Shown: piece after piece, positions 1 through 19,501 of the stretch
Layout: the number at the start of each line of letters is the position of its first letter
How positions within the stretch are numbered: position 1 is the first letter of the stretch
Origin: Micromonospora craterilacus
GTDB taxonomy: Bacteria; Actinomycetota; Actinomycetes; Mycobacteriales; Micromonosporaceae
Reading direction: 5' to 3'
Assembly (NCBI RefSeq): GCF_003236315.1
Contig: NZ_POTY01000004.1
Location: 1-64,000, forward strand
Length of the DNA stretch: 64,000 nucleotides
Notes under the pieces: generated by a model
Told to the model about the DNA's origin: nothing
The model's database searches: none
The model's input: only the letters and a program-made list of their open reading frames with translations
Translations under genes and position numbers: made by a program

Positions 1-835
1 CGCCCACCCCGCCCATCCAGCCGCGTTTCGGGACGTTGCAGTTGATGACCGGCCCCCAGCAGCCGATCTTCACCTGGCACTTGGGCGAGTTGTAGTCCTT
101 GGCGAAGTCGGCCTGCTCGTAGTAGGCGGCCCGGTCGCAGCCCTCGTGCACGGTCTTGCCGAACAGCCACTGCGGCCGCAGCATCTGGTCCAGCGGCGGC
201 GGTGGTGCGGAGCCCGCGGCGTGGTAGAGCACCCAGGTCAGCGTCTCCATGAAGTTCTCCGGCTGGATCGGGCAGCCGGGCACGTTGACGATCGGCAGGC
301 CGCCCTGGGAGCGGTAGTCCCACCCGAGGTAGTCGGCCAGGCCCATGCACCCGGTCGGGTTGCCCGCCATGGCGTGGATGCCGCCGTACGTCGCGCAGGT
401 GCCGGCCGCGACGACCGCCCACGCCTTCGGCGCCAGCTGGTCGATCCACCAGTTCACGGTCAGCGGTTCGCCGGTCTTCTCGTCGTTGCCGAACGAGGTC
501 CAGTACCCGTCGCCGTTGATGTTCTCGTTCGGGATCGATCCCTCGATCACCAGGATGAACGGCTCGGTCATCTCCCCACGGGCGGCCTTCCGGTACGGCG
601 CCAGGAACTCCTCGCCGCCAGCCGTCGGCGACAACACCTTGTTGTGCAGGTTGACCTTTGGCAGGCCGGGAACGAGCCCGAGGACGACGTCCTCGATGGC
701 CGGCTGAGCGGAGGCGGTCATCGACACGGAGTCGCCGTCACAACTCATGCCCTCGGAGATCCAGAGGATGGTGACCTCGTCGTACCCGTTCTCCTGCGGC
801 AGCACCGCGGCGGGTTTCCGCACGCCCTGGCTCAT
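1..835 (-). CDS. [NiFe] hydrogenase small subunit, group 1h-like (partial, C-terminus off the window)
   Basis: Electron-transfer subunit of a [NiFe] hydrogenase; it carries the Fe-S clusters that take electrons from the large-subunit active site. The N-terminus is MSQGVRKPAA, followed by WISEGMSCDGDSVSMT, which resembles the proximal-cluster region of the actinobacterial high-affinity group (group 1h, formerly 5). Further on are AGTCATYGGIHAMAGNPTGC and VNVPGCPIQPENFMETL, both classic small-subunit cluster motifs. No twin-arginine leader is visible, as in group 1h. The ATG at 835 overlaps the stop of the last repeat-borne mini-ORF (ATGA), so its ribosome site GGAGCGAGG lies inside the repeat. 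The large subunit would lie beyond position 1. Uptake of atmospheric H2 is inferred from family. Confidence 0.93.
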   Translation of the reverse strand, partial: MSQGVRKPAAVLPQENGYDEVTILWISEGMSCDGDSVSMTASAQPAIEDVVLGLVPGLPKVNLHNKVLSPTAGGEEFLAPYRKAARGEMTEPFILVIEGSIPNENINGDGYWTSFGNDEKTGEPLTVNWWIDQLAPKAWAVVAAGTCATYGGIHAMAGNPTGCMGLADYLGWDYRSQGGLPIVNVPGCPIQPENFMETLTWVLYHAAGSAPPPPLDQMLRPQWLFGKTVHEGCDRAAYYEQADFAKDYNSPKCQVKIGCWGPVINCNVPKRGWMGGVG

Positions 836-915
836 GCTGCCACCTCGCTCCGCTCGGCGTCGACCTGAGCATTTTCTGCGCTGCGTTGCCGATTCACTCG
901 CTGGCGCTCGCTCAT
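832..915 (-). CDS. Mini-ORF copy 3 of tandem repeat (27 aa), next to the hydrogenase gene
   Basis: The third, most downstream unit of the repeat, read leftward, encodes a 27-residue charged peptide starting MSERQRVNRQRSAENAQ and ending SEVAA. Its ATG overlaps the stop of the preceding copy, and its TGA overlaps the ATG of the hydrogenase small subunit. It differs from the other two copies by two bases, both synonymous in this frame (Ala GCG to GCA). No known domain is recognised. It may act only as a coupling spacer rather than a functional peptide. Confidence 0.5.
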   Translation of the reverse strand: MSERQRVNRQRSAENAQVDAERSEVAA

Positions 916-1073
916 GCCGCCACCTCGCTCCGCTCGGCGTCGACCTGAGCATTTTCCGCGCTGCGTTGCCGATTCACTCGCTGGCGCTCGCTCATGCCGC
1001 CACCTCGCTCCGCTCGGCGTCGACCTGAGCATTTTCCGCGCTGCGTTGCCGATTCACTCGCTGGCGCTCGCTC
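834..1073. repeat. Three tandem copies of an 80-bp repeat between hypA and the hydrogenase gene
   Basis: Units run 834-913, 914-993 and 994-1073. Units two and three are identical; the first differs at two positions (T for C after ATGC, and in TTTTCTGCG versus TTTTCCGCG). Read leftward, each unit supplies a complete 27-codon ORF, a terminal ribosome site and an ATGA junction, so any number of units can sit between two coupled genes without breaking translation. I have a vague memory of similar peptide tails in Micromonospora and Salinispora annotation but cannot verify it here. Confidence 0.95.
912..995 (-). CDS. Mini-ORF copy 2 of tandem repeat (27 aa)
   Basis: Identical in sequence to copy 1. 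It is linked to its neighbours on both sides by four-base ATGA stop/start overlaps and lies in a different reading frame from either, because the 80-bp period is not a multiple of three. The end of each unit carries a GAGG-type ribosome site about seven bases before the next ATG. Confidence 0.5.
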   Translation of the reverse strand: MSERQRVNRQRSAENAQVDAERSEVAA

Positions 1074-1075
1074 AT
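992..1075 (-). CDS. Mini-ORF copy 1 of tandem repeat (27 aa), coupled to hypA
   Basis: First unit in the direction of transcription. Its ATG at 1075 overlaps the hypA stop (ATGA), and the GGGGAG at the end of hypA serves as its likely ribosome site. The product is a hydrophilic peptide rich in Arg, Glu and Gln, with no family recognised. Confidence 0.5.
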   Translation of the reverse strand: MSERQRVNRQRSAENAQVDAERSEVAA

Positions 1076-1470
1076 GCGTCCGCGCTCCCCGGGTCGTGGC
1101 TGGCCGCCGCCGGCACCAGCGCGGGCGGCTCGACGACGTCCACGGTGATCGACTCCAGGACCACGTCGTCGGTGCCGGTGACCTCGATGTCGACGCCACC
1201 GCACTGCGGGCAGGCCACCATCGCGAGGTGGTCGTCGACCGGCCCGCGGCGACCGCAGTCGTGGCAGGCCACCGTCATCGGTTCGAGCACCAGGTCGACG
1301 GCGGCGTCCGCGGCGACCGTGCCGGCCGCGGCCAGCTGGATGCCCTGCGTGACGACGCCCGGATCGACCGGATGGCCACCGATCCGGACCCGCAGCCCGG
1401 TGACCCGGCGCCCGGCCGCCCGGCGTACCGCCGCGTCCACGATCGCCTGGGACAGACCTGTCTCATGCAT
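1072..1470 (-). CDS. hypA: Hydrogenase nickel-incorporation protein HypA
   Basis: HypA delivers Ni to the hydrogenase large subunit together with HypB. The protein is 132 residues, close to the usual 110-135. The N-terminal Met-His-Glu (MHETGLSQAIVDAAVRRA) is the conserved nickel site. The zinc site is present as CHDC and CPQC near residues 72-92. The C-terminal tail is longer than usual and Ala/Pro rich. It overlaps the upstream protease gene by eight bases and is joined to the first mini-ORF by ATGA, so it belongs to the same leftward operon. Confidence 0.95.
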   Translation of the reverse strand: MHETGLSQAIVDAAVRRAAGRRVTGLRVRIGGHPVDPGVVTQGIQLAAAGTVAADAAVDLVLEPMTVACHDCGRRGPVDDHLAMVACPQCGGVDIEVTGTDDVVLESITVDVVEPPALVPAAASHDPGSADA

Positions 1471-19099: not shown

Positions 19100-19501
19100 A
19101 TGTACGTCCGTCACCTGCTTGCCCCCGCCCTGCTCGGGGGAGCACCGGCAGCCACGTACCTCTCGGCCGAGCCGATCGCCGCCAGTGTCTACACCATGAG
19201 CGCCGGGCGACTCGGGGCCAGCCTCGCCGCCGTCCTGGGGCTGGCCGGCGTGGTCATCGGCGGGCTGGCACTGGCCCGCCCCGCCAGTCGGGTCGGCACC
19301 GGCTCCGGACGGCGCGGAGCCACCATGGCCCTGCTGGCGGGGCTGATCGGCATGGCCCTCGGCGGGCTGGTCGTGGCCACCTCCGACAGCGGTATCGGCA
19401 CCGGCAACGGGCGAGGCGGGGCCTACGTGGCCCTGGCGGTGGGGCTGATCGCCGTCGTCCTCGGTGGGCTGGCTCTGGCTCGTTCCCGACCCACCATCTG
19501 A
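19100..19501 (+). CDS. DUF6223-type small membrane protein
   Basis: A 133-residue protein with a weak N-terminal signal-like segment and three hydrophobic helices (LGASLAAVLGLAGVVIGGLA, MALLAGLIGMALGGLVVA, VALAVGLIAVVLGGLALA), separated by Gly-rich polar loops (GTGSGRRG, GTGNGRGG) that look like an internal duplication. I assign it to DUF6223 by its pattern. Function unknown. The ATG at 19100 follows GCGAAGGGA. It is transcribed toward the convergent response-regulator gene. Confidence 0.8.
   Translation: MYVRHLLAPALLGGAPAATYLSAEPIAASVYTMSAGRLGASLAAVLGLAGVVIGGLALARPASRVGTGSGRRGATMALLAGLIGMALGGLVVATSDSGIGTGNGRGGAYVALAVGLIAVVLGGLALARSRPTI

Follow-up and report, generated by a model that had tools for sequence, protein, structure and literature searches.

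What are three almost identical 80-bp units doing between hypA and the gene for the hydrogenase small subunit in Micromonospora craterilacus, when each of them is a small open reading frame (ORF) in its own right? The locus lies at 832-1075 on the minus strand of the window, the stretch of 64,000 nucleotides analyzed here (assembly GCF_003236315.1, contig NZ_POTY01000004.1, positions 1 to 64,000). An earlier note, made from this sequence alone, had read it as a mobile repeat that can invade ATGA junctions without breaking coupled translation. The results showed that this reading is right in essence, and that elements of the same kind are already known in mycobacteria as mycobacterial interspersed repetitive units (MIRUs). 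Very probably the array consists of a MIRU-like mobile repeat, present three times in tandem, that leaves translational coupling intact. At the level of sequence comparison, the dispersal of the repeat, its precise insertion at DTGA starts, the preservation of the frame and of the Shine-Dalgarno (SD) site, and local amplification were all demonstrated.

In the window, the three 80-bp units link hypA to the hydrogenase small-subunit gene through ATGA overlaps, and the features in the order of translation are as follows.

1072..1470, minus strand: hypA (ORF list; Pfam PF01155, E=1.7e-17), with its TGA stop within the first ATGA.
992..1075, minus strand: repeat unit 1, ATGA to ATGA, a 27-codon ORF (sequence and Tandem Repeats Finder; 78.4 bits with profile R1, introduced below).
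1003..1006, minus strand: GAGG, SD-like site for unit 2 (sequence).
912..995, minus strand: repeat unit 2, identical to unit 1 (sequence).
923..926, minus strand: GAGG, SD-like site for unit 3 (sequence).
832..915, minus strand: repeat unit 3, which departs from the other two units at two bases, both synonymous (sequence).
843..846, minus strand: GAGG, SD-like site for the hydrogenase small-subunit start (sequence).
2..835, minus strand: NiFe hydrogenase small-subunit gene (PF01058, E=9.2e-22; PF14720, E=1e-12), with its ATG in the last ATGA; the gene extends past the start of the contig (C444), so that the window stops short of the large-subunit side.

Each unit is composed of ATG, 26 codons and TGA, encodes MSERQRVNRQRSAENAQVDAERSEVAA, and shares an ATGA with the neighbouring unit. 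Since 80 is 3n+2, the reading frame shifts from unit to unit, and in every unit of the array a GAGG is positioned 7 nt before the next ATG. The coordinates thus agreed with the layout described in the earlier note, three tandem units with 27-codon ORFs joined by ATGA from the hypA stop to the small-subunit start, and the successive frames, each with its own GAGG and ATGA junction, could be read directly from the sequence. Tandem Repeats Finder gave a period of 80, 3.1 copies, 98% match and a score of 482; this score, together with the dispersed copies found elsewhere, excluded a chance origin of the array. Both variable bases fall in the unit at 832-915 and are GCG/GCA changes, synonymous as the note had stated. 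They carry no weight as evidence, because 41 independent copies showed no synonymous bias.

A search of the M. craterilacus genome with a single unit gave 53 matches. Profile R1, a sequence-only profile built from 34 copies, found 96 matches in the same genome at E<=0.01. Under a stricter filter, R1 detected the family in 36 of the 37 sampled genomes of the genus, with 0 to 76 matches per genome, and the exact core was also present in Micromonospora sonchi, M. qiuiae and M. lutea. Across the Micromonosporaceae, R1 detected it in 172 of 251 genomes and 29 of 44 genera, and the same anatomy of units was found in other genera; among 396 genomes of the phylum, very few carried it. The question that the earlier note had put to this family of bacteria, whether copies sit at ATGA junctions in variable number, was answered largely as it had expected, with copies at DTGA gene starts and a copy number that varies from array to array.

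The position of the copies relative to genes was then surveyed in 62 arrays (80 units) of the M. craterilacus genome, with neighbouring ORFs counted from at least 100 codons. As many as 61 of the 62 arrays terminated in DTGA, and 57 led directly into such an ORF (or one cut by the fetched stretch), compared with 39% of all DTGA sites at the same loci. The genes that follow resemble gpsA, panC, hemC, cytochrome oxidase subunit III and ABC transporter genes, named by eye from the translations. The arrays started on the TGA of an upstream ORF in 47 of 62 cases, compared with 20% of all DTGA sites, and only 7% of background sites had both the upstream stop and the downstream ORF. DTGA occurs about 13 times per kb with both strands counted, and because it is so frequent, the confinement of the copies to gene starts is strong. 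Furthermore, an SD core was present before the left DTGA of 41 of the 62 arrays, compared with 14% of background DTGAs; among the 15 arrays that have no coupled upstream ORF, 10 had such a core. These results indicated that the target of insertion is the start codon, and that the stop/start overlap is usual but not required. The ATGA junction proposed as target therefore held as far as the start-codon DTGA is concerned, and the coupled upstream stop turned out to be dispensable. Copies were not mostly outside genes, with about 5 of the 62 arrays lacking a gene directly after them.

The joined flanks of ten M. craterilacus junctions were searched in relatives for the same sites without the repeat. 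At the junction on contig C108, where the downstream gene begins like a siroheme synthase (by eye), four species carry the empty site GAGAAGTGA, and M. craterilacus has a full unit with GTGA at either side. Further clean empty sites were found in relatives at the gpsA junction and at those on contigs C94, C58 and C325. The D bases to the left and right of the arrays were correlated (43 A/A, 7 G/G, 6 G/A and 4 A/G; Fisher p=0.001), which fits a duplication of the target tetranucleotide upon insertion. Read side by side, the empty and filled sites demonstrated that the unit inserts at a DTGA that holds a start codon and leaves DTGA on both sides. With dispersed copies in sense orientation at DTGA gene starts and empty sites in relatives, the invasion of such junctions without loss of coupling was borne out, and mobility of the repeat can be inferred from the comparison of genomes.

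At the hydrogenase locus, strong matches were obtained in 12 other genomes of the genus, and none of those whose junction was readable had a repeat there, suggesting that, of the lineages sampled, this one alone has the hydrogenase array. In most relatives read, a hemerythrin-like gene (by eye) stands between hypA and the small-subunit gene; it is absent in M. craterilacus, and relative G140 has neither this gene nor the repeat. The orthologous junctions also contain decayed inserts of 26-80 nt, and in about 15 of 23 occupied cases these form a mini-ORF that is open and runs as far as the start codon.

What the family conserves was examined in the units themselves. In the M. craterilacus genome, 76 of 78 units were open and a multiple of three in length, so that frame-breaking differences were confined to two units of 76 nt; one of them (contig C87) continues in frame into its gene. 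Unit lengths ranged from 69 to 84 nt, and the periods were 80, 77, 74 and 71 bp, all 3n+2. All 51 of the 84-nt units were open, compared with an expectation of 77% per unit if substitution is neutral and follows the observed spectrum, a comparison that is indicative because the copies are not independent. Units from other genera were intact in 29 of 30 cases, and the cross-genus alignment showed one-base insertions and deletions that compensate each other within a unit. The motif GCGAGCGAA occurred in two frames (58 and 29 units) with the unit end always in frame, where only the internal shift is informative since the set was picked for in-frame length. SD cores were found at 98 of 102 family unit ends, compared with 42% of shuffled ends. 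The entropy at the three codon positions was 0.71, 0.77 and 0.77, and the synonymous fraction was 0.30 in the coding frame versus 0.34 in another frame. Taken together, the units stay open and keep the SD core, yet give no codon-position or synonymous signal: the family preserves its reading frame, its DTGA ends and its ribosome site, and not the peptide.

Two loci of the same genome, L014 (contig C110, from about 5835 downwards) and L031 (contig C87, 6074), have a unit, truncated or 76 nt long, whose frame runs on into the gene that follows. It is possible that the fusion gives these genes a repeat-derived N-terminal extension.

Units of the same array differed by 0-9 bases (17 in one pair), and the median between arrays was 23. 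The likeness of units is thus much greater inside an array than from one array to another, which indicated that arrays grow by local duplication. Together, these results showed that the element inserts at a DTGA start as a segment 3n+2 long, that its frame stays open between the DTG on the left and the TGA on the right, and that it brings an SD-like site with it. On this basis we propose a course for translation. Ribosomes leaving hypA would reinitiate on each 27-codon mini-ORF in turn and then on the hydrogenase small subunit; through this chain of reinitiation the operon would remain coupled, and the element could persist as a nearly neutral passenger. Its mobility would rely on an enzyme acting in trans.

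Several observations weigh against the reading of the array as a mobile, coupling-preserving repeat. About 8 of the 23 occupied orthologous junctions in relatives hold inserted DNA that forms no coupled mini-ORF. Targeting of start codons by the insertion machinery and purging of insertions made elsewhere are not separable in these data. The M. craterilacus genome has no Y1 transposase (PF01797), the repeat has no inverted repeats of 8 or more, and the phage and plasmid collections gave no match at 84 nt.

Other explanations of the array were weighed against the same evidence. An ORF that is open in nearly all copies, with two synonymous changes in the window array, might point to a functional small protein or a regulatory leader peptide of 27 residues, whose frame is kept for its product. 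We consider this very improbable, since the codon-position entropy is equal, the synonymous fraction is not higher in the coding frame than in another frame, and other genera read the same DNA in different internal frames, giving unrelated peptides; the 27-mer also had no Pfam match. The idea of a peptide under purifying selection was rejected for lack of a codon-position signal. A function of the nucleic acid itself, as a hairpin, attenuator, terminator or promoter, or in the manner of repetitive extragenic palindromic (REP) sequences and bacterial interspersed mosaic elements (BIMEs), with one frame open by accident, would fit the GC-rich units and the short inverted motifs that the alignment fold shows locally, and the senX3-regX3 MIRU array has been reported to drive senX3-independent regX3 expression (PMC4213456). 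However, the RNA folded no better than shuffled sequences (z -0.55 to 0.72), covariation was weak, there was neither an Rfam match nor an inverted repeat, and no sigma-70-like promoter or terminator was found on the operon strand. A length of 3n would moreover be unneeded for a purely nucleic-acid function, and we regard this explanation as highly improbable.

Tuning of downstream expression by copy number, with the copies retained as an adaptive dosage device and not as passengers, is also unlikely, though less so than these two. In its favour, copy number per array differs between loci and between genomes, and for M. tuberculosis a tandem repeat located upstream of fpg1 has been tied to expression level (PMC2734929). 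Against it, the genes after the arrays are functionally unrelated, the arrays are missing from orthologous junctions in relatives, and the genome copy number swings widely between species (0 to 76). Finally, the genome is a draft of 609 contigs and the array is close to a contig end, so an assembly artefact, or a merely local tandem duplication of no wider meaning, had to be considered. The chance of this is close to negligible, as three single-contig genomes (G035, G179 and G145) carry the family as tandem arrays at the same spacing; the count of three units at the hydrogenase locus is that of the draft assembly.

To place the MIRU-like repeat among known systems, it was compared with published descriptions. 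According to a 2025 review (PMC12548453, citing Supply 1997), MIRUs are mobile repeats that insert at start codons, with an ORF coupled at -4 nt and probably little effect on expression. H37Rv has MIRUs at 41 locations, 12 of them polymorphic (PMC2734929), and senX3-regX3 holds 77-bp and 53-bp units (PMC4213456), whose lengths are 3n+2 like the periods found here. MIRUs and the present family are both dispersed short repeats, single or in tandem at many loci, of 40-100 bp in the case of MIRUs and 69-84 nt here; in both, a small ORF overlaps the neighbouring genes with its start and with its stop (-4 nt, DTGA); and both insert at a start-codon DTGA with the tetranucleotide left on both sides, as indicated here by the empty sites and the D correlation. 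Variation in copy number was seen here between species, with one genome per species covered. The family differs in its main unit of 80 bp, in its 96 matches compared with the 41 H37Rv locations, and in its host, and because the host is not a mycobacterium we call it MIRU-like and not MIRU. Likened in this way by published description and not by M. tuberculosis sequence, it appears to be the counterpart of MIRU in Micromonosporaceae. No description of such a repeat outside mycobacteria was found in the open-access literature.

Beyond the Micromonosporaceae a wider profile, R2, was used. It found weaker relatives in 18 of 201 genomes of a second family (f8), mainly in genus g20, and one genome of g309 had 17 matches. 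Genus g20 is probably Nocardia. Genus g8 is probably Mycobacterium, as suggested in part by a PBP-like/PknA-like gene pair flanking one g8 copy, where the unit sits between the two genes. In g20, one tandem unit, at locus L161, can be read without a stop from ATGA to ATGA on the other strand as well. The g8 units follow the design of the Micromonosporaceae family, running from DTGA to DTGA with a 22-codon open frame and a purine-rich SD-like end, single or three in tandem; their middle part is about 15 nt shorter, and the copies found were few.

L174, L191, L192, L193, L197 and L198, genus g8 (inferred Mycobacterium): loci with DTGA-coupled units of 65-bp period.

The best g8 unit matched profile R2 end to end (E=9.4e-7 in 12 kb), and this match suggests a common origin of the g8 elements with the Micromonosporaceae family. 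More tentatively, and with the odds rather against it, the elements of the Micromonosporaceae and of the Nocardia/Mycobacterium family might belong to a single superfamily, old and still active, of coding-neutral insertion elements. These would target start codons, possibly via translation initiation or its mRNA, and would be mobilised by a mechanism that differs from known transposition; published MIRUs would form one small branch of the superfamily.

Other short repeats were also compared. REP/BIME sequences with REP-associated tyrosine transposases (RAYTs) and miniature inverted-repeat transposable elements (MITEs) are likewise short, non-autonomous and dispersed in bacteria, and some enterobacterial RU elements (MITEs) contain ORFs (PMC2759123). 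Unlike REP, the repeat here has no palindrome and lies in sense orientation at start codons, and the M. craterilacus genome lacks PF01797, the transposase of the RAYT type. Unlike MITEs, the repeat has no terminal inverted repeats; no search was made for insertion sequences with matching ends in the rest of the genome. A 59/60-bp repeat, VSARSEPVLRAPQSRT, was also noticed in Micromonospora relatives, with 1-3 copies at L203, L204 and L209 (relatives G004, G002 and G008). It occupies the same junctions, in tandem and open from GTG to the next start, but its sequence is unrelated, and the G008 array consists of 60-bp units fused in one frame and not coupled.

MIRUs are widely used to type tuberculosis strains. 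To our knowledge, how they move and why they lie where they do are poorly understood. The same design at high copy in Micromonospora, which is non-pathogenic and can be cultivated, with clean empty sites and many stages of decay, makes such questions testable, among them the selection of start codons, the translation of the mini-ORFs and the effect of array length on expression. The family also illustrates how an element can live within operons by preserving the reading frame rather than a peptide, and it calls for caution in the annotation of small ORFs at gene starts.

Two further repeats were observed in the window. At 2038-2079, 4.7 copies of a 9-bp repeat encode a recurring Ser-Val-Ser stretch close to the N-terminus of the ORF adjoining hypA, and at 19237-19479 there is a tandem repeat of 102 bp in 2.4 copies.
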